Of a DNA stretch of 64,000 nucleotides, positions 6,019 through 41,461 are shown in pieces. Source of the DNA: Actinostola sp. cb2023 (lineage: Eukaryota; Cnidaria; Anthozoa; Actiniaria; Actinostolidae); NCBI GenBank assembly GCA_033675265.1, contig JAUJYZ010000691.1, positions 72,501 to 136,500 on the forward strand. The letters are read 5' to 3'. The notes beneath the pieces are model-generated. The model ran no database searches, had not been told where the DNA came from, and saw only the letters and a list, made by a program, of their open reading frames with translations. The number at the start of each line of letters is the position of its first letter. Position 1 is the first letter of the stretch. The translations under genes and the position numbers were made by a program.

Positions 6019-7181
6019 GTAGCCTATCTTCTACGAGATTATAAGAGGTGCATCAGGCCTCAACATCATTCTTCCATTTAGTCTTGTTCCTGGCTGCGCA
6101 CCGTACTTCATCCCAGGACTTCCAACCAGCTTTTGCTCTCTCTTTCTCAACACAAAGTTCTCACATTCCAATTGCTGATCTTCATTTGGGTTTTTGGATT
6201 TACTAATGGTCGCTTCAACTCCTGAGCTTCCAACTGGCTTTCAATCAGGGTTGTCATACTAGATGCCACAGCACTTCCAAGGTTTCCTGTGTCTCTATTC
6301 TTGTTTAAGGTTTCGGTAATCATATCTTTTATTACGGTGCCAGGTGATTGGCCTGACGTCCAACCCCCAACATGGAGGACCAGGGCTGTCTTTAGTCAGG
6401 TTTCTAGCTGTTCTTTGACCAATCCGGCATGGTTGGACCCACCAGAGACCGCAGTCCCGGCCGGCATAGCTCTCCGAATCATTGAGGCGCGCGAGCTTCA
6501 CCACCACGACAAGGTGACAGACCAGGCTGAAGTTTTTTTTCAAAGTACAACCAAACAATTGAGCTGACATGATCGATTGAAGGTATTTTAGTAACTGGAC
6601 GGATTTAGGGATGAGTTTTCACAAGATTTGGTATCATATTTTAGCAGATTTGTTTCGAGATTCACCACAGGAATCCTGAAAGTTGCCTACCTTATAATAA
6701 TACACGTCCTCCAGTTGACGAGGGTATGGATGGGGGTATGCGATTGTCAGTTAACTACTAAATTTTTGTTAGACAAATTAGTAGTTAATAACTACTAATT
6801 TGTCTAAATTTAATTAATTATCAAACAATAAGTAATAAAACCATTAAATATCACTCATTAAATGTAAAACCATTAAATATCGCCTTTTTCTCTTTGTTCC
6901 AGTCACATTTGTCCCACTTGGACCACTTTCGTTCGTATTTTCTCTTTGTTTTTTTTTGTTGGACAATTATTGGCACTTTATTGGTCCAATTAATATTGTT
7001 TTCTGGATTGGATGACATGTACTTAAAAATAATAATAATACAATCAAGTTGGCTGTAACGATCTAGATAGCATCCAGTCGGTCTAGCAACCTTGATTTGG
7101 CGCGCTTTTATTATTTTAGATGACGTCAACTAAATTTATCTTACTATTCAACAGTGCGACTAAAACGACTTTATAATAATT

Positions 7182-7461
7182 GTGTACCTCCCAAGAACGC
7201 GCGATTTGATTGGTTGCTGAGCGTGCATATTATTTTTGTATAAATGCACGGAGCAGCGAAAACAAAGCAGAAAGCCTGTTTAAAACTAGTTTTATATTAT
7301 AAAGCGAATAGAAGATGACTCTCCGTGCTTCTATACAAAAATAATGTACTTCTGAGGTCTTGAAACGGCTGCTTCCGCTCGTGCATCCACTAGCAGCTTT
7401 CAAGACCTCAGCGTGCATTATTTTTGTATAGAAGCACGGAGAGTCATCTTCTACTAGTTAA
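7182..7461. repeat. ~280-bp dispersed palindromic repeat, copy 1
   Basis: Internal inverted repeat: gactctccgtgcttctatac near 7320 against gtatagaagcacggagagtc near 7420, around the palindrome gaggtcttgaaa. A second copy lies at 9642-9930. Confidence 0.75.
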
Positions 7462-7474
7462 CTATTGACCAAAA

Positions 7475-8516
7475 AGCAGGAGCCCATAAGTAGGAGCATC
7501 CATGTAGCATTAAAATCTGTCACGGCGTTTGAACAAATTTGACTATTTTAGAACACGAAATTGACTAATCACTGTTGCTGCAAATTTGTTGGGCCCAACG
7601 CTTGCTGTTGTTGATCAACAATGTTTGAAGCAATATATATAATAATCCAAATGGGGCATAACACTACTGGAAATTACCTGAAAAAAATCATGTTTGAAGC
7701 GTTTATGTTTGCACAGGCCTCGCTTAAACGGGCGCAACTTCACTCCCAACATTGTTTCGTGTTTGTTGATGCATGCATGGTACAACAGGAAACTAGAAAT
7801 GTTGCGTGAACCGTTTAATCCTCCCCTCTCCTGTCTATACCAAATATTTATATTTACTTTATTTTTATATTTTTTATTTCCTTTCTTCATTCATTAATCT
7901 TTATCTTTTATTCCAATTTCCTGTACCCCTTATTTCTATTTTCTTTCTCTCCACCCACATTTCATTTCATTTTATTTATTTTTTACTTTCTATTTTTCAT
8001 CCTTTTTTATCCTTCACATACAGCCACTGTTCTCTCTTTCTTTCCATATGTTTGGGTTAAATTGTATTTGCCTTATAAAAAGATAAGGGACCCGACACTT
8101 ATTCCTGTTGCCGTTGTTGTCCGTATTAACGGGGTTTTGACTGTATCTGGAACTAAGAAATCTCGAAACATTGCTACATGGGTGTTGTTTTGAGAGTCCG
8201 ATGAGATAGAGGTATTAAATTGAATTTCATTTTGAATCAGTCATGTGACAAGTATTTATTTTTTATATTTTGTTCTATTTTTATATATTTTTTCATTCCG
8301 CGTTTTAGCATTTTCCGTCATTCCGCGTTTTAGGATTTGGGTGATTTTCCGTCATTTCGCGTTTTAGGATTTTCTGTCATTCCGCGTTTTAGGATTTGGG
8401 GTGATTTTCCGTCATTCCGCGTTTTAGGATTTTCCGTCATTCCGTCTTTCCGCGATTCCTCGTTTTAGGGTTGCCCCTATATGTAGCATGGATGCTCCTA
8501 CTTATGGGCTCCTGCC
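7475..8516. mobile_element. 1.0-kb element with ~35-bp terminal inverted repeats
   Basis: The left end gcaggagcccataagtagga (7475 on) is mirrored at 8480-8516. The interior is pyrimidine-rich (7810-8060) and holds a minisatellite at 8290-8462. A module at 7960-8080 recurs inverted near 11260-11330 and 11890-11970. Confidence 0.75.
8290..8462. repeat. minisatellite of cattccgcgttttaggatt units
   Basis: About six imperfect copies of a unit containing attccgcgttttagga, alternating with ttttccgtc spacers, form short- and long-period tandem copies inside the 7475-8516 element. Confidence 0.8.
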
Positions 8517-9288
8517 AAAAATCTAGTATTAAATACTCAGTAAACGTACCAAGAATATGAAGTCTTTTGTGTAAGTTATTGCTCACCTATCAAACTAGAA
8601 CTGGAAGAACGTGGCTTTATTTTATTTATTTCGCTTGTATTGCTTTCCAATAGATTGACAATCGGATGGGTCAACTCCAGCTCCCTTGCATTCTCATTCA
8701 CTCTTGTCAGGCCTGCATGAACAGTTTTAACTCGAATGAACCGAGTCCATATTTATTGACTTGTTCTTTGATGCCCATGAACTCGATTAGTGTTTGTGCG
8801 CGTTCTCCATCGAGTTTTGCTTCGCAAATTCGATGGGGACGCGACCTCTGTGACGCTCGAACGTGGACCCTTCATCACTAATTCTATAAAAGCTCAAAAT
8901 AACTTTGACAATACATTTAATAATCGATTCAAAAATGTGTCAATATTCCACCAGGTCTTACAAGATTACAAGCTTAGATGACCTTAGATAACGTGCATGA
9001 CATTGAATACAAAGTCTAAAGAAGCCTTTAGATCCTGTTTAGTAAATGATGATCAATTTTAAGAACGATGGCAACAACAGTTTTAAACTAAAATAATAAA
9101 CTGTCCGGCAGTTAACTGTTATATTTTTCAATTGTCAGTAAACTACTAATTTCTGGGTCATTTGTCAATTAACTACTAAATTTTAGGCCAATTGTCAGTT
9201 AACCCCCATCCATATACCCTCGTTGACTGATGTTGTATTTTATAAGCTTAAACTCTTGTAGACTTGCAATTACTAGTAAACGAACTTC

Positions 9289-16604: not shown

Positions 16605-17273
16605 TGACTTATCGAATCCAACGACGTATAAGTGGATGTTTAAGTACTATATACAATATGAACGGCCGATCTGTATGGGATTTACAAACTCGAGCCGTAG
16701 GCGATCGGACGCGAATCCAACGATGTATAAGTGGATGTTTTACTATAATTTGGATGATAGGAAACAGTTTGGCCGAGAAAATCCAAGTTAAAGTTGAATG
16801 CCAATGAGAACGAATCTCTTGCCGATTTACAGATGTCTGCTACGCTTATGATTTCTATTGTATTTCCCTCATTAATTATTCATGAATTCGATAACTGTAA
16901 TTTGGATGATAGGAAACAGTTTGGCCAAGAAAATCCAAGTTAGACCAAGTTAAAGTTGAATGCAAATGAGGACGATTCTGTATCCGATTTACAAATGTCT
17001 GCTACCCTTATGATTTCTATTGTATTTCCCTCATTAATTATTCATGAATTTGATAAGTACTATATACAATATTCGCGTCCGATCTGTAGGCTCGAGTTTG
17101 TAAATCCCATACAGATCGGCCGCTCATATTGTATATTACTTATCGAATCCAACGATGTATAAGTGGATGTTTTACTATAATTTTGATGATAGGAAACAGT
17201 TTGGCCAAGAAAATCCAAGTTAAAGTTGAATGCAAATGAGGACGAATCTCTTGCCGATTTTCAGATGTCTGCT
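16605..17273. repeat. irregular tandem repeat that is the transposon's target
   Basis: Blocks containing tggatgataggaaacagttt recur near 16752, 16902 and 17185. Blocks with atgtctgctac and tttctattgtatttccctc recur near 16833 and 16995. The repeat resumes at 26165-26226 on the far side of the 8.9-kb element, so the array was split by the insertion. Confidence 0.85.
17265..17273. other. target-site duplication, left copy (ATGTCTGCT)
   Basis: Nine bases repeated at 26165-26173. The unoccupied sequence is present at 16833-16841 and, with a diverged neighbour, at 16995-17003. If the element is instead taken to start TTAGCC, the duplication shrinks to 7 bp. Confidence 0.85.
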
Positions 17274-17435
17274 TAGCCTGCGTAGCTCGGCGGTCTGGAA
17301 GGGGAAGGGGAAGGGGGGAGGGGGAGGGGGAAAAAGAAGGAGGAGAGGGGGTTGGGGAGGAGAAGGGGAAGGGAGAGGGGATTGGGGAGGAGGAGGAGGA
17401 AACACCGCCTGCCCGAAGACTATGGGTTTTTGAAT
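17274..17435 (+). repeat. left terminal inverted repeat of the 8.9-kb transposon
   Basis: Begins TAGCCTGCGTAGC, continues through a ~110-bp almost pure purine tract rich in GGGG runs, and ends gactatgggtttttgaat. The right copy at 26004-26164 differs at about two positions. The purine tract makes spurious Pro/Ser-rich frames on the opposite strand. Confidence 0.95.
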
Positions 17436-17554
17436 TGCCCGTCCGCTGGAGAACGGGAAATACTGATTGGCTAAAAAGTGACGTGTCTGTCAACGTGTAC
17501 GGGTGTCAAACAACACTTATAATATTATTCGAGTTTTCACGATTACGAGAAAAG

Positions 17555-19592
17555 ATAGCGGCGGACGCGTGTATTGAAAAAGCCTTAGAATTTTTAAAGA
17601 ATTCTAACAGAGATTTCACTTTAAAACAAGAGCAAAGGCAGGCTGTCGAAGATTTGCTACGAGGAGAAGATGTTTTGGCAATTTTGCCCACGGGCTTTGG
17701 TAAAAGCATCATATTTATAGTCTTTCTACTGGCAAGAAAGTACTTGGAACAGCAACAGGACGATACATACACATTCATGCACAGTCGTTGTGATTTCTCC
17801 CTTGCAGAGTATAATAATTGACCAGATTGCAGAGATACAATCTATGAACTGTTCTGCAGTTGAACTCTGCAGCGAAAATATCGATGGGATAATCAGTTCT
17901 CCTCCAGAGTTCATATACTCGATAGCTGAGAAAGCAATCGAGCAGCGTTTTCTCGACTCCCTAAAAAACGACCACAGTGCTCTACATCGAAGCGTTTCTG
18001 CGGTTGTCGTAGATGAGTGCCATACGATGGAAACTTGGACTGGGAAAAGGTAAAAAAAGTTAGCTCTAAACTTTACATGAACACTTTGTCTCTTCAATAG
18101 AAAGAGAGCGACTGCCTTTCGATTCGCAATCGCAGGGTAAACATTCCTTCGACCTTGTGTAACTGATATTAGTTTAAATTTTCAGGAAAACACAAGGAAA
18201 CAAGCACACTCAAGCTTTTAGGAGTGCCTATGGGAAGCTTTCCATCTTACGTTCTATGTGTAAGCCAGGTAAGGAATTCTACTCTCTTAAGTATATTGAA
18301 CTAAATGATTTTCTTACATGTAAGCTTAAGCTTAATTTTGGATTTTTATACACTCAGCTAGCTAATAATAATATTGTTATTTCATCCAACCAGGTACACC
18401 ATTTCTAGCACTCACTGGCACAGCAGATGGAGACACTGAAAGAGTAGTTGCAAGTGACCTCAACATGAGAAATTACACCCGATTGTTTGTAAGTCCTAAC
18501 AGACAAAATCTAAAGTTTGTAGTTGAAAAAGTTTCCAAGGAAACAATGTTGGAGGAGCTTGATTGGATAATAGAACTTGTGAAAGAAAAGGGACTAGAAA
18601 TTCCCAAGATCATCATAATTTTCTGTAGTACCCTATATGCCATAGGGAGTGTGGTGAACTACATGATGTTGAAATTGAACAAACTAGCATTCTATCCAAC
18701 ATCATCTAAAGAAATGGAACACTGTATTGTTGGGATTTATCATTCATCAACTCTACCAAAGTACAAAGAAAGAGTTTTAAATTCTTTCAAATCAAATGGC
18801 ACAAAAAGAATTGCTGTCGCAACCACTGCCTTAAGTATGGGTGTCAATTTCCCTGACGTCAGATATGTTGTTATGTATGGGCCACCACGAAGCATTTTGG
18901 ACTTCCATCAAGAAGCTGGACGGGCAGGAAGGGATGGAACAAATTCTTATGTCATTCTCAGCTACTATGGTCAGCAAATCACACATTGTGACGATGACAT
19001 GAGAATGTTTTTGAAAAGTACTGGTTGTCGTCGTGTGGCAGCATATTCAAGTTTAGACCAAGAAATAAGTCCAAAGCTACCTGGTCATGAATGCTGTGAC
19101 TACTGTTCATCAACATGTGAGTGTGACCATGACATATGTAACCAGCCAAAGCCCTATGAAAGAAAACAAGTTGTAGAAACCAAAGAAGTACCATCCAGGA
19201 CTGTCTCAGAAACAGAGAAAAAAGCACTGGAGGAATCACTGAAAGAACTGCAGACAAGTTTATCCTCAAACACAGGAATAAGTGCCTTTGGAAGTACATC
19301 GTCTCATGGCTTCTCATCAGAACTGATATCAGATGTGGTTAATAACTGCCACAAGATATTTACACTTAAAGATATCCTGACCTATGTTCCAGTTTTTTCA
19401 AAGAACCACGCCATAAAGATCCTAGAAGTTCTTTCTGAATTCTTCGATGATTTTGAAGAATCTGTTCTTACTGATCTCTCGATAAACAATCAAGATGAAG
19501 ATCAACAATGCAAGCTTTTAGTACTTGAGGATATCATGGCCAGTGAGTACACTGATGTGTTTGAAGATTCACTAGACATTGATTTTATTTAG
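17555..19592 (+). pseudogene. RecQ-like DNA helicase of the 8.9-kb transposon (start lost, one frameshift)
   Basis: Three exons: 17555-18049, 18186-18268 and 18394-19592, with GT-AG introns that keep phase. Order of motifs: Q-motif-like FTLKQEQ; Walker A LPTGFGKS (~17690); Ia VVISPLQS; II VVVDECH (~18010); III LALTGTA (exon 3 start); V ATTALSMGVNFPD; VI HQEAGRAGRDG; then a RecQ-type zinc region with CRR and HECCDYC. A ~180-aa tail of unknown function ends at TAG 19590-19592. Family role: ATP-driven 3'-5' DNA unwinding. Two lesions: the expected start is ATA (17555-17557) in an ATG-like context before GCGGCGGAC, and the frame shifts by one base near 17780, between FMHS and VVISPL. The rest is open. 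The gene is probably inactive in this copy unless these are assembly errors or an unseen upstream exon supplies the start. Confidence 0.85.
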
Positions 19593-19640
19593 TAACATAA
19601 TATTTATTATAGACATACATATGTACATATAGGTACAATT

Positions 19641-19845
19641 TAGGGTGCGTTCGATTGACCTTATCCCAGAATAGGATTAATAACATCCCTAAATCACTGT
19701 CAGCTACTGTCCACTGTAAAATGAAACGATTCCTTGTTGTAGTACATGTATACAGTTTGGAAATTTAAATGTGCTGAAATAAAACCATCCACATGTTTAT
19801 TTCGTGTATTCCTATTCTGGAATACGGTCAATCGAACGCACCCTA
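19641..19845. mobile_element. ~205-bp MITE between the two transposon genes
   Basis: Terminal inverted repeats GGGTGCGTTCGATTGACC / GGTCAATCGAACGCACCC with TA on both sides. Non-coding. Confidence 0.8.
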
Positions 19846-20204
19846 AGTTAGTAATACTTTTGAAAACTATGTACATTTAGTTGACATCAATCAGTAATAT
19901 TTACATTATTATCCATTAAGTTAATTACATGTAGTTGATGTCAATTCCAGTTCTTTGATATGTATTTTGTACAATGTATATATTTTGCAGCTAGACTGCG
20001 AGTCTAAATCAAGTACATGTACTGTACTACATCATGAATTCCAGTATGTACGAACAGTACGAAGTTAGATAAATGTAAAATATGTAGTCATGGTTTACAA
20101 ATACATATACATATTACATGTGTATGTGCATGTGCCAAAAGATGATTGTAAAAACATATCCTGTGATTACAGGTACAAGCTGACACTTAATTCTTATCAA
20201 GTTC

Positions 20205-20210
20205 TTTATT
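20205..20210 (-). promoter_or_regulatory. poly(A) signal AATAAA of the transposase gene
   Basis: Minus-strand AATAAA, 44 bp past the stop codon at 20254-20256; a normal distance for a cleavage/polyadenylation signal. Confidence 0.6.
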
Positions 20211-20253
20211 GTAACAAAACTAACTAAATGAAAAAACGATCTAGACAGGAATC

Positions 20254-23200
20254 TCAATAATTGAAACACGAATCCCAATTTTCCATGAGCCTAACCATCC
20301 AGGAACGAAGGTCCCTATAGTCAAGTTTTTTAAGGAGATTTGATTGAAATACTGGAAAAGATGGGTGTCCATCTCTTCCTTCTTGTAACCTAAATGCTTC
20401 TATCTGCATTAAGTCATTTGTAATCTGCTGCACTGCTGTCTCTGGCTTTCCTGGGGATCTGTACCCTTTTGTATTTTGCAAGCTACAATCCTTGTCAATG
20501 GCATCTAGAATAAGTTCAAGAGGCTCTACTGTGTTGGCAATTCTCTCTGCAGACTGTTCATTCAAATTAGCACCAAGTGCTCTCCACATTGTCTTGACAA
20601 TTTTATTCAATTGTTCCATTCGTAAGTCTAAAGGAATATTCCCACCTTTCGTACCATACTTATTATAAAACCTATTCCATTTAAGGCAATGAGCATCTCT
20701 CTCTGACAATATGTTTGCAATTTTAACCAAGTAAAGAAAAACTACATAAGAATATTTTGTTTTGCCATTGGCTTTGTACAATAGAAGGACAAATTTGTAC
20801 AAGTCATGTAGTCTGTCTCCATCTCCTTCCTTGATTGCATCATTGAATTCAAATATAACAAGACCAAACACAAGTTTTAATCTGTGGTAATTAAAGACAC
20901 TATCTTCCGACTTCTTTATGCTCTCTTCTGGGCTTTGTTCAGCTATTTGTACTCCTTGATGCACAATTGTTTCATGACTGAAATTTAAGATACATGTACT
21001 TATTATTTTGATAAAAAAGGTTTCACCTGGTGGGCTAAAAATTGTTGTGCTGAGAGACATTGAATTAAGGTGTGGACACACGCTGCAACAATACGTGTTG
21101 CGTGCAATGTTGCACCGTGGCGTGTGTCCGGCCCTTTAATCTTTTGGCAGCATACATATGTACCTGTTTCTTGAACCCTTGGTTGAGTAGACTAGACCAC
21201 ATGAGGACCGGCAATGATAGTGTCCAAATGCATCTCTTTCATTTCCATTTAAATATATTTCAAACACTAGTATAGGTGATGTTTTGTTACTTCATGCCTT
21301 CAAAATGCAAGGTATATTATTATCAAAATGTATTACTCCTATACTCTAATATTCTTATATACTGTACATTATTTATTACAGTTCAACTAATAAAACTGTG
21401 AATTCATGTCTAAATTATGTAGAAATGCAAAAAACAAGAAGGTTGAACATGTTGTTGTTTAGTTGTCTGGATCGAAATTATGGCTACAATCTAAATTATG
21501 TCATGTGACCATACAATCACATGCGAGAGTGAAACCACTGAAAATGTAATAAACATTCCAGACATGCATAATTTAGGCATTCACAATGCTTTTATTAGTT
21601 AAACTGTAATACAAACTTGTGATCAATAATTATTAAATCTTACTTGACCCTTGCAGAATGATGTATATAACTTTTGTCACACCCATCCAAACGACAAATA
21701 AATCCCAGTTTTAATGAATCATGAAGTTCTTGTACTTGCTGGGCCAGCGGTTGAATGTCCCTACTTTCCAGAAAATACGTTTGTGTGTATTTCACACACA
21801 AATCCATGAGCCATCTCCGACGTTCATCTTTAGGTACACTATTGTCTGGGATATCATAGTTTGGGAGATCTGCAACATAATAACCAAACAGTTTTGAGAC
21901 ACTAGTCACTTTAAAATGGTCAAAAAGTTATCTCAATTTATTGTCTTTTAAAGGGCAAGTTGCATGAGTGTTGTCAAAAAGCTGGAAATTATATTAAATG
22001 ATAGTAATTGGTCTCACTAATAAATAGTTAAAATAATAACTTGAATACTCTTTTGGAAATAATCGAAAAAGCATCGTAAAAACGGAAATTGAGAAAACCA
22101 GCAAGAAGCGGAAGTGACGTCATGGGGGTCAATCCAACGCACTGAACGCAGCCGGCTTGAAGTTAACATGGCGGATGAGTCTTCAAGTCCGAGTTCACTC
22201 GAAAGTCTTTATTTGGGAAACGATTTAGAAATCATAGAGGCTTAACGTGAGTCTGAAAAGAGCAATAAGGGTGATACTGGACCCCCATGACGTCACACAA
22301 GCGGGAAATTCGAATTCTGATTAGTGAAACTTCAGAAAATAAATTCGTTCTTTAAAATAGATTTTCTTGCAAATAAGTTTAGTTATAGTATATGACCTTT
22401 ATTATATAATACCAAACAAATTTTTTTTAGAATTTTTTTTTTTTCCCCATGCAACTTGCCCTTTAAGGGAAGTAATACAAACCTTGTCGGTAATCAATAT
22501 TTGATTTTATATATACACTCGATTGCAGAAAGGTTGTAGTATTGTACAAATATCGAATGAGATGCAATAAATGGATGCGATACTAATCTAAAATTGATGA
22601 TTCTGGTATATTAGAAGAAAATAAGTGATGTTTCGCACTTTGCATCTCATTAGATATCTTGTATCTCATCAGATATTTGTATAAATGTATACTACAACGT
22701 TTCTGCAAACAAGTGTATATATAGAACGTTATTTCTTCCAACCTTCCATTTTCGACATTCCAGACATTTCCATGAATGATGCACATATATGGCCTTCTAC
22801 CTCACATTGGTGAAACTCCTTGTACTCATTATAATGGCTTTTTACTCCCTTAGATGCATTGATTTTGCCAGTACGGTTCATGCTTGCACGTGATGTTCCT
22901 ATCTCTCCTGACGATGAACTTTTGACAAAAGTATCATGTTCCACCTAAAATAAATCAATGTTTTGGATTGGAAGACATAAGTTGCTTCAAATCATACTGC
23001 ATCATGCAAAGGATAACATCTCATCACATTGCTGTTAGTTGCATATAATATACATGCATTGTTACAATGTAATTGAAATACCAAGTACCATAAGTAAATT
23101 AAATTTTGCATGCCAATCAGCAAACTCTGTGTCCAATCCTTCCAGTCTGTCATTAGGAGAGTCCCCATCTTTAAATGTCCATTTTGTACATCTGGCCCTC

Positions 23201-25865
23201 TCTTCAAAGAGTTGATCTCCATGAAGTGGAACTGTATGTATCACTTGAACATCACCATCAGCATTAGTAAATTTGGGGACATATTTTTCATTATTGGATA
23301 AGAGAAGTTGTGCCATCTCACCCGCAACATTTGGGTTTAAGAACTCAATACCAAGACAACACTAATAAATTGAAAGGAGTTAAATGCATTAAAATATTTA
23401 AAAATAATTATTATGGGAGAGTACACCCCAGGGATTATCAATCAAATACAGTCAAACCCCTATTCTTGGGTTGCAACCACATGACTCAAAATCCAAATAA
23501 CAATGAAACAGCCACCACGTTGGATGATCTAACAAGAGAAGCTAATGAGGAATGCTTTGTTATTGTTATCCAACATGGCGGCTATGACGTAACGTGCAAC
23601 CTAATAATTGAGTGGACATTTACTCAGTTAAATTAATAGGACTTTAAAACTTACAGTTTCTGATTTAGATGCCATTTCTTCAGAGTAGGGATGCTCAATA
23701 TGGAAGACCACAACATCCTTTAGATGTTGAAATTTATCTAAATATTTACAAATCACCCTGCTGACCAACACTGCCCAGCAAAATGTCAGGTTTTCATGAA
23801 CTGTTAAATCTGGCAGTAGGTCTGTCAACTGTACATCAGCCATTGGTTTCTGGGGACTTTGGGTAGGTAAGCTAGTACCTAAAACCTTGTCACGGATAGC
23901 ATACTCTTGTGTCCAATGTATTGACCTATTGTGATCAGTTGTACTTTGGATTCTTGCATGGATTTCTAAGTCAATGTTATCACCTACTAACCTAATATCA
24001 AATCCAGAATAATTGGGAAAAGAAAGGGAGAAAGTGTTATTAGCTGATGACTTACTGACTGACTGGGGACTTTGATATCAAAAGGGCAGGGCATTTTTTT
24101 CAATTCCTTTATTCCATATGTCAAGCTTAGCCTCACAGTTCTCTCCCATTTAAAGTTTATGTATGTATGTAGGGATGCTCGTCGTGTGGTCCTGCTTAGG
24201 TGTCAGAAAAGAACCACCAATAGGGGTCCGCTAAATAAAGTTATGACACAAAAGTAGAAACCATTCAAAACTATTGTCTGTATTAGTTGCCTTTTTCAAC
24301 ATTTCCGACGAGCATGCCCCCCCCCCCTTCGGAGTACTCCCCCCGTCCCCACCCCCCCCCCCCCCCACCTTCGGAATACTCCCCCCCCCATTGGTAGTCC
24401 AATATATTACCATAAATAAACACTAAATATTGTGTAAATATACATACTTGTAACTGGGAAATTTAGAGAGTTTACAAAGAACCACTTCTAATTCTTCGTC
24501 GGTGATGTTCAGGCCAGAACTCGCGTCTTTTAGAAGGTCGTTGCAATATATGTAAATTCCTTCTTCGTAGTGCTTATAACTTTGGATGTGATCTTTTGAA
24601 AAATCGATAACCACATCTAATATCATATCGTCATTGTTATACGACCCAATTTGCTTTTCCTTGACTTCATTGAGCAGCAGCAATGAAGGGGCATTTTTTT
24701 CAATTCCTTTCTTCCATATGTCAAGCTTAGCCTCACAGTTCTCTCCCATTTTTTTTTCCATTCCAACTATGCTATCTGGCGACATACAAATTCCCAGCTT
24801 TTGTAAACGTTCAATGTCATTGAATTTTACGCCACTATGGAATAGTATAGTAGAAATACGATAAGCTACAGCAGACATTTTATGACTTCTACATCTAGCA
24901 GCAATCGAGGTACTCATTGCCATAGCATTGATCGCTTTGAAGTTGTCGTCATTGGATGAAAAATCACATGCACCGCGAAGGCATGACATCCAGAATGGAC
25001 ACATCACCTCTGCCTCGTGACTGACTAGGAGCTTGTTTGAGAAGGCTGCTAATTCAACAGGATCGCTTTTTTTTAGAATTGAATCTGTGGCATCAGAACA
25101 GTACTCTTTAAACTCTCCAGTTACAACCTTCGTCAGGGATTCTTGCAATTCATTACGTAGACTTGGGTGTTTAAAGACTGCGTTTGCTACAGTCTTCCAG
25201 TTCCCATGAGTGAGATTAATGATAAGTGATTTAGTAACTTCATGGAAGCTACTATTTGTTTCGACACGACCACTTGGATGAACAACCAACACCTTTAACT
25301 GAGTTGTGGATTTGTCGATCAATTCTTCAATATTCAACTCATTTAAAACAATGTCCTCGAGTTTTCCTTTGAATCCCAACGATTTCTTTGCCCTGCTCTG
25401 AGACAATGCTCTAATAGCTGGCTTTATTGATTTCTTTACCTGAGGACTTCTCTCGGGAGAAGAAATAGATGTCGGCAGTGTTCGTTTGAAGCGTTCGGGA
25501 CTTGTTGGAGTTGGATTATTCAGTTTGCCGCCGTTTTCATTATGTAGTACAGTTTTTATGAAATGGAAGTATTCACATCCTGTTTTTATCTTCCTTGCAC
25601 ATGGCTTGCAAACTCGACTGGAAAAGTCAGGAGAACTCTGTAGGTTAAGCCCCAACGAAGCACATAATTCTGCTAAAGTTGCCTTTGCCTGGCATCCATT
25701 TCGCTCCGACAACTTGAAAATATTTTCAGAAGAAATGTAAGACGTTTTGTCTATGTTGCCGAATTTCACTTTAAATGAGCACGAACAAAATCTACAAAAA
25801 TCGTTACAAGTTTCGGTTTGACATTTTCTCCCTTTTTTAACGGGTTTCTTTGGCGTAGTCTCCAT
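20254..25865 (-). CDS. zinc-finger/DUF6589-like transposase, six exons
   Basis: Exons on the minus strand: 24448-25865, 23655-23991, 23089-23361, 22743-22944, 21644-21869 and 20254-20977. All introns are GT-AG, phases match at every junction, and the total of 3180 nt gives 1059 aa plus stop. No lesion is seen. The start is the ATG at 25865 (METTPKK); the frame is open further upstream but has no ATG. Residues 24-89 form a ZAD-like zinc finger (C24-x2-C27, C86-x2-C89). A charged linker follows, then a conserved-looking block with AARCRSHKM and GVKFNDIERLQKLGI (exon 1). The later half (GDNIDLEI, then HGDQLFEERAR, then PLDLRMEQLNK) resembles DUF6589-type transposon proteins; D477, D634 and E940 are candidate catalytic acids, my inference. 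Likely a DNA-binding recombinase acting in the nucleus on the flanking repeats. It converges on the helicase gene. Introns carry MITEs. Confidence 0.88.
21379..21606. mobile_element. 228-bp MITE in transposase intron 5, TA target duplication
   Basis: Ends CAGTTCAACTAATAAAA and TTTTATTAGTTAAACTG with TA at 21377-21378 and 21607-21608. Confidence 0.75.
21952..22462. mobile_element. 511-bp TTAA-flanked element in transposase intron 4
   Basis: Ends AGGGCAAGTTGCATG / CATGCAACTTGCCCT, each next to TTAA (21948-21951 and 22463-22466), as for piggyBac or Kolobok families. An inner inverted repeat (tgacgtcatgggggtc / gacccccatgacgtca) encloses a 25-codon frame at 22168-22245 beginning MADESSS in a good start context (aacATGGCG). 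That frame could be the clipped first exon of the parental element. Confidence 0.75.
22509..22725. mobile_element. ~215-bp palindromic MITE in transposase intron 4
   Basis: tatatacactcgattgcaga (left) is matched by tctgcaaacaagtgtatata (right), continuing through ttgtagtat and gagatgcaa blocks. Non-coding. Confidence 0.65.
24084..24154 (-). repeat. 70-bp duplicate of transposase exon 1 inside intron 1
   Basis: 24084-24154 matches exon 1 sequence at about 24682-24752 almost base for base (words catttttttcaattccttt, atatgtcaagcttagcctc). It is a non-functional exon fragment on the same strand. Confidence 0.9.
24312..24390. repeat. poly-C tract in transposase intron 1
   Basis: Several C8-C16 runs separated by ttcggagtactc and ttcggaatactc. 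Prone to slippage and assembly error. Confidence 0.9.
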
Positions 25866-26003
25866 GTGAGTTTCGTACGGTACCGTACTGCCGAATGTTT
25901 TGACAGCTACAAACACGCGGCGCGAGGTGTTTTAAAAACACGCTGTAAGCCAAAGGTCAAATCGTATGATTGGTTATTTTAATTGGATTAGCAAAAAGGC
26001 GGT

Positions 26004-26164
26004 ATTCAAAAACCCATAGTCTTCGGGCAGGCGTTGTTTCCTCCTCCTCCTCCCCAATCCCCTCTCCCTTCCCCTTCTCCTCCCCAACCCCCTCTCCTCC
26101 TTCTTTTTCCCCCTCCCCCTCCCCCTTCCCCTTCCCCTTCCAGACCGCCGAGCTACGCAGGCTA
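26004..26164 (-). repeat. right terminal inverted repeat of the 8.9-kb transposon
   Basis: Mirror of 17274-17435, ending gagctacgcaggcta. The duplication ATGTCTGCT follows at 26165-26173, and the target repeat continues to about 26226. Confidence 0.95.
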
Positions 26165-27190
26165 ATGTCTGCTACGCTTATGATTTCTATTGTATTTCCC
26201 TCATTAATTATTCATGAATTCGATAAGTGAAGTTTATAGAACGAGAGACCGTGTTTTATCGGGTTTAAAACTACAAGGTGAAGCCGAGTGGTTTTAGACC
26301 CGATAAAATACGATCTGCGAGTTTATTGAACAGCTTCGAAAACGATCTTCCAAAATATTACATTTTCGCCGGATGATTTCAGTAAAAAAAAGCAAGGTAA
26401 ACACAAACACAGCAGTATCGTGTTGCTTCTAACGCCTCATACATGCGCACCGATACTACTAATACTCTCAAAAAGATCCCACATTCGAACAACGGTCCGA
26501 AAGTGTGACCAAGGAGCAATCTTTCAGGACACTGACATATATGTCAGTTCTAGAACTGACTACCCGAAACACAGGCCTGTATGCAAAGGTCTCAGATTTA
26601 GTATCGCATCACTGACCTTCACATAGGCATTTTTGGAATCATATTACTAGGTTCCTACTGACACCTACAATATGTCCTTCAAATGTGGGACGAGTTGTGG
26701 TGTTCAGTGTAACAGTCGTCTCTTACCTACAAATTTGTGATTTTCTTTAACGTTTTCCATCGAAAATTATTAATTATCACTTTAAATGAATGTTGGATTT
26801 TAAAAGTCATTTATAAAACTCGATGCCATGTTGTATCGGGTATATAGATACTCGCCTTCGGCTCGTACTGGTCTATTTCCACCGATACAACACGGCCTCT
26901 CAGCTCGTTTGATAAATATCACATAGACACTGATGTTTTATTAATCAGCGATTTATCGGGCTATAAAGACCCATGCATGTGACCGATTGGACAACCCTGA
27001 TTGGACCAATTGCTCATAAATTATTAATGAGTTTTAGAAGTCTAATACCCACATTTAGATGACCGAGGAATCTATATAGGACGAGGTATTTCATCATGTA
27101 CGAATAAGCCACTTCACGCTGTCGTCCGCCATTTTAAATAGGGACATACGCGGCAAAATTTATAGAAATCTGGATCACTTTGACTTGCTG

Positions 27191-40437: not shown

Positions 40438-41461
40438 CTAAAGAAATTAAGAACAATTAATACAGACCACACCAGTGTTAACTATCAATACAGCCATCTC
40501 ATTTATACCAAACCGAAGAGATGCATCGTTAATTCCAAAATTGAAATTGCAACACGATTGCTAACATAACTAGGAATAATATGCTAAATTGGCGACAACG
40601 TATTTGGCATAATTTATCCGCGCTATTTCAAGTAGTGTTTTCTTCTGAAATAGAAACACATTTATAAAATATAGACTATAAAATACTTTGAAAGATTAAA
40701 TTTGTCAATAATCTTCAGGAGGTACAACACAATACTTGTATAGATGGTACATACAATTTTTTGAGTATACACTGTTAAATTTAAAATATTTTGGCAGCCC
40801 AAGCTGGATGTTTTCATCAGTCATTCAGGAAAATGCAAAACTTTCAGTTTGAACTAAATATTGAAATGAAATAAATGCTCGTATCGCGCTTCTCGTCTCA
40901 CTGTTTTATTTTGAGACGTCAATATAACGTGGCATTGAACTCTCAAAATTACCACGTTTGATTGGTTCACATGATATAATTGACAGCAAAAACATTATTT
41001 TGGTAACTGGTTTTCTACTACTATGCGAATCAGTATTCTTCGATTTATCCTATGTTTTCAATGAAAATGTAAGGGTATTTCGCGGCAGACCCTTTCATGC
41101 TCGTAGTAACAGGGACCGCGGAAACTGGGGGGGGGGGGGGGGGGGGGGGGGGGGGGCTATACTAGTATGGTACTAGTATATCCAGCCCCCTCCCCCCCCC
41201 TCCCCACTTTCAAGGGTGCTCGCGGTCCCTGAGTAAGGAATGACGATAATTCCCACCGCGACAAGGGCCGGTGAAATAGCAGATTCCATACCTAAGACAA
41301 GTACGCCAATACTCAAACGGATCCACTCAAACTACACCTGAGCGCCAAAACCCAAACAAAAGAAGTGCCAACACTCAAACAAACACTGTGAAAACGTGAA
41401 AACAATACAACGTACACCTAACTCAATCATATAACTCACGGAACTCGGACAAGTTCGTACT

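Follow-up and report, generated by a model that had tools for sequence, protein, structure and literature searches.

A full-length but decayed DNA transposon, very probably of the AcademH type, with genes for a DUF6589 protein and a RecQ-like helicase

The 64,000-nucleotide stretch of contig JAUJYZ010000691.1 that was analyzed here, referred to below as the window, contains at positions 17274-26164 an 8,891-bp transposon consisting of two convergent genes between terminal inverted repeats. One gene encodes a protein with the Pfam domain DUF6589 and the other encodes a RecQ-like helicase. We conclude that, very probably, the element is an AcademH-type DNA transposon which has kept its full length but has decayed, that its host is an animal and probably a cnidarian, and that it represents the parent of a family in which 0.9-kb deletion derivatives predominate. 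The AcademH-type assignment rests on three features that fit the published description of that group: the helicase, the length of the target-site duplication, and the probable host.

Element ends and target-site duplication

A first-pass annotation, made by a model from the DNA letters and a list of open reading frames, had described a complete transposon with near-identical terminal repeats and a 9-bp repeat outside them, and its boundary coordinates proved to be exact. The terminal inverted repeats are ~162 bp long (17274-17435 and 26003-26164, neither assigned a strand as a feature) and are identical in 160 of 163 aligned columns, the left one being G-rich on the plus strand and the right one on the minus strand. 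The 9-bp sequence ATGTCTGCT lies flush against both ends as a direct repeat (17265-17273 and 26165-26173, again without strand), as read from the flanks and from other copies. The target site in the window (16800-17273) is a degenerate tandem repeat with copy spacings of ~162 and 270-280 bp, which continues to the right of the element.

Two extra copies of ATGTCTGCT lie inside this flanking repeat, at 16833 and 16995, and for that reason the 9-bp repeat in the window is by itself no proof of a duplication and might be due to chance; the extra copies also show what an empty site looks like. Two other readings of the ends, both of them open to a reader of the window alone, were tried, one in which the 9-bp repeat is a by-product of the tandem repeat and one in which a 7-bp duplication flanks termini that are one base longer. 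Both were rejected, as 13 other copies have duplications of exactly 9 bp, each of a different sequence. The ends and the 9-bp duplication are considered settled because other genomic copies share both the start and the duplication length.

Other copies in the genome

These copies came from a left-end DNA search of the assembly that holds the window (424 Mb in 1,594 contigs), in which 40 of 663 first-look candidates were scored, so that the counts are lower bounds. At least 43 matches were found; when the window itself and four rows that repeat a locus with a second piece are set aside, ~38 other loci remain. The match began at query position 24 or 25, equivalent to window 17273-17274, in 30 of the 43 rows. 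Nineteen of the ~38 loci were taken with their flanks for comparison, and all 19 are internal-deletion derivatives of 863 to 1,661 bp. They join approximately element positions 1-677 to 8656-8891; some have lost a little more, and L035, L039, and L042 have additional sequence ahead of the right end. A common deletion junction with a short filler is present in every one of them, with small variants in single copies, and pairwise identity ranges from 95.2 to 100% (median 97.4%).

An exact, flush 9-bp duplication borders 13 of the 19 derivatives, in 13 distinct sequences. The duplication is 8 bp long in L047 and absent from L032 and L038, which represent one duplicated insertion, and L035, L039, and L042 have mirror-image flanks in place of a direct duplication, L039 and L042 being near-identical copies of one region. 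In L042 the mirroring takes in 198 of 200 flanking bases, and the inverted repeat thus reaches well past the element. The right flank of L047 opens with TCCATAGCCTGCGT, by appearance the beginning of a further terminal repeat from this family.

The derivatives too are decayed, and none encodes anything whole. All 19 retain helicase exon 1 sequence and therefore descend from a gene-bearing parent. Probing the assembly with transposase exon 1 gave one further place, a fragment matching element positions 6659-8734, and within the scope of that probe the window element is the only copy seen with both genes.

Transposase gene

The transposase gene on the minus strand had been called intact over six exons, and the model with GT/AG borders does have a frame that is open for exactly 1059 amino acids. 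Its exons lie at 24448-25865 (exon 1, ATG at 25865), 23655-23991 (exon 2), 23089-23361 (exon 3), 22743-22944 (exon 4), 21644-21869 (exon 5), and 20254-20977 (exon 6). The Pfam model DUF6589 (PF20231) matched residues 527-989 of the joined protein with E 3.4e-33 and 115.4 bits (cut-off 27) across model positions 8-407 of 410, which bears out the earlier DUF6589-like label; the C-terminal part of the domain is encoded by exon 6. Pfam assigns no function to this family, nearly the whole model of which is matched, and the domain is presumed here to be part of a transposase.

The ZAD-like finger that had also been proposed fared poorly, the Pfam zf-AD (ZAD) score being 13.4 bits, under the cut-off of 28. 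A CxxC...CxxC pattern is present at the N terminus (exon 1, ~25599-25796) and occurs in the relatives P0002 and P0004 and partly in P0005. Most of a C2H2-like finger motif is encoded by exon 5, from which it runs into exon 6. A second C2H2-like finger, present in all three of the five aligned relatives that span the site (P0001, P0002, and P0005), is absent from the window protein. As read by eye, three families from this genome (L002, L004, and L008) also have one finger only at the corresponding site, so the missing finger need not indicate damage. Four of five matches among the close relatives carry an organism name, either Paramuricea clavata or Exaiptasia diaphana, and the host is therefore probably a cnidarian.

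Candidate catalytic residues in the window protein are D477 and D480 in a GDNID motif (exon 2), D634 in HGDQL (exon 3), and E940 in PLDLRMEQ (exon 6). The corresponding residues were compared in a 68-row alignment numbered on P0001, in which few rows reach the first sites. Among the rows that cover each position, D149 is conserved in 8 of 9, D152 in 8 of 8, D303 in all 12, and E638 in 60 of 62; the aspartate at P0001 position 634, four residues ahead of E638, is conserved in all 62. These conserved acidic residues may constitute a DDE triad, a reading suggested by the alignment. Fold searches with structure models returned no significant match, and the models did not resolve the putative RNase H-like core.

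Several smaller features lie in and beside this gene. An insertion of ~213 bp resembling a miniature inverted-repeat transposable element (MITE), with inverted ends TTAGGGTGCGTTCGATTGACC, occupies window 19637-19849 between the transposase and helicase genes, and transposase intron 4 holds a further two units of MITE-like form, also with inverted ends (~21948-22467, read by eye, and 22505-22726). A 63-nt stretch of exon 1 (24689-24751) is repeated with 98% identity in the following intron (24089-24151).

Helicase gene

The second gene, on the plus strand, had been described as a RecQ-type helicase with a zinc region, of which the first part is upheld by matches of the helicase segments to RecQ-family proteins in the PDB, such as BLM, RECQ1, and WRN. 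Exon 1 (17555-18049, limits by eye) carries motif I and a DECH box, exon 2 is predicted at 18186-18268 from splice sites read by eye, and exon 3 (18394-19592, start by eye; Pfam and NCBIfam) carries Helicase_C, a Cys-rich stretch, and a C-terminal segment common to other families. Helicase_C was matched on exon 3 with E 4.8e-17 and 62.6 bits, over the cut-off of 23.5. The DEAD model scored 24.2 bits, slightly under its cut-off of 26, and NCBIfam recQ_fam gave E 1.2e-26, under that model's full-length cut-off. The zinc region is less secure, as the Pfam scan of the helicase segments listed no RecQ zinc-binding model and the Cys-rich stretch was read by eye. Judged by these matches, the helicase is RecQ-like and not a certified RecQ.

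The frame of exon 1 is broken by a 4-bp insertion, and those four bases are missing in 19 of 19 derivatives. No ATG precedes motif I in the first open stretch of the gene. None of the 19 derivatives has an ATG at the aligned place either, L041 having one close by, and the start given for exon 1 is therefore tentative.

Recurrence of the gene pair

A DUF6589 profile search of the same genome, in which 102 of 361 candidates were scored, gave at least 105 exon-level matches, the window's own included, and no matches were found in 14 control genomes. The eight best-scoring loci (L001-L008), which are not a random draw, were examined for a helicase. At all eight, a helicase relative is encoded on the other strand in the tail-to-tail arrangement of the window element, which supports the earlier proposal that the two genes belong together; at L005 the relative is a 48-residue C-terminal piece only. 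L002, L003, and L006 lie on three contigs and are 99.3 to 99.5% identical across ~3.95 kb, and the eight loci were therefore counted as six families. This likeness may be due either to recent transposition or to assembly duplication.

The C-terminal segment of the helicase recurs in all six sequences that were aligned, the window and five families. Across these six, the identities of the two genes were uncorrelated (Mantel r -0.19, with 538 of 720 permutations as high), and co-inheritance of transposase and helicase is therefore not demonstrated. Given the convergent helicase at all eight top-scoring loci, the DUF6589 domain nevertheless looks like the transposase domain of AcademH.

Classification

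AcademH is reportedly found in animals and fungi, going by the title of a 2020 study by Kojima. In a later description (Kojima 2023, PMC10045372), AcademH is a helicase-encoding DNA transposon with target duplications of 9 or 10 bp, whereas AcademX has duplications of 3 or 4 bp, a difference tied there to the encoded helicase or nuclease. The window element carries a gene for a superfamily II helicase, Helicase_C being above its cut-off, and its 9-bp duplication falls within the AcademH range, as do those of 13 of the 19 derivatives, the others having 8 bp (one) or none (five). No difference from AcademH was seen among the features compared, namely the helicase, the duplication length, and the probable host. 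Another source (PMC10799480) gives AcademH as low-copy in fungi, in contrast to the at least 105 exon-level DUF6589 matches here. AcademX belongs to the same superfamily by name and differs in its shorter duplications and in having a nuclease and no helicase (PMC10045372). No nuclease family was above cut-off in Pfam scans of eight segments and the joined transposase, which together fall short of every base, and a Pfam match to the C-terminal, helicase part of Cas3 was under cut-off.

The first-pass annotation had found no superfamily that it could name for this structure. That view largely gives way, because AcademH, a described and helicase-encoding group with 9- or 10-bp duplications (PMC10045372), matches this structure in the features compared, which are structural and not those of transposase sequence.

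One rival account is a superfamily of its own, still without a name, which would be like AcademH in carrying a helicase and making 9-bp duplications but would have a DUF6589 transposase not homologous to that of Academ. Consistent with this, none of the papers in the library searched was found to link DUF6589 or PF20231 to transposons, the fold searches were uninformative, and the match to AcademH is one of described features and not of Academ reference sequences. However, the published description of AcademH (PMC10045372) is matched in the helicase, in the length of the duplication, and in the probable host, and we regard a separate superfamily as quite improbable. Two unrelated lineages with one and the same combination would also be the less economical account.

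Kolobok elements duplicate TTAA on insertion, in contrast to the 9 bp of varied sequence seen here, and we count a Kolobok-type origin as refuted by duplication length and barely credible. The likeness that speaks for it is a RecQ helicase within a DNA transposon, as in KolobokH and in Kolobok-1_CCri, the latter with the helicase on the complementary strand; KolobokH is further set apart by host range, being stated as fungi-only (PMC9587614 for both points).

Equally remote is the proposal that only the ends, those of a foreign MITE, are mobile and that the two genes between them are cargo or belong to the host. It would suit the absence of internal genes from all 19 copies compared and the single further internal fragment found with the exon 1 probe, but runs against the recurrence of the convergent pair at eight of eight other DUF6589 loci in six families and against the helicase exon 1 sequence kept in 19 of 19 derivatives, which points to a gene-bearing parent.

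Proposed mechanism and significance

The genomic copies themselves show that insertion takes place with a 9-bp stagger, that the ends are precise, and that derivatives have spread. For an AcademH-type element with these genes, we propose that the DUF6589 protein would act as a DDE/D transposase, its zinc fingers would bind the terminal repeats, and it would cut the repeats and join the ends to target DNA with a 9-bp stagger. A role for the helicase may lie in opening or processing the ends or the strand-transfer product, and the derivatives would be mobilized in trans.

If DUF6589 is confirmed as the AcademH transposase domain, naming it as such would be a useful result: a Pfam family of unknown function would gain a role, and predicted DUF6589 and RecQ-like genes of corals and anemones would need to be re-checked as transposon genes. 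A family that combines one full-length copy with numerous short derivatives, bordered by clean 9-bp duplications, also provides ready substrates for probing the role of a helicase in transposition. Some modest novelty may lie in DUF6589 as the AcademH transposase domain and in the G-quadruplex motifs of the terminal repeats.

G-rich terminal repeats

The terminal repeats are unusually G-rich, and at least one G-quadruplex motif is present at both ends of the window element (17301-17330 and 17347-17373 on the left, 26066-26092 and 26109-26137 on the right). Each of the 19 derivatives likewise has at least one motif at each end, compared with 17 motifs in 157,143 bases of right-hand flanks. As all copies share an ancestor, this conservation is one observation and not nineteen, and the count covers the family of the window element alone.

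RecQ helicases unwind quadruplexes, and a link between the motifs in the repeats and the RecQ-like helicase can be drawn speculatively. In its fullest form, the terminal repeats would be built as G-quadruplex (or purine-triplex) structures that the element's own RecQ-like helicase opens, so that recognition or opening of the ends would need a matched pair of repeat and helicase, with DUF6589 as the partner transposase. We consider this tentative model unlikely as a whole. Elsewhere in the window, a tract of long G-runs at 41110-41217 has the highest G-quadruplex score of the whole stretch.
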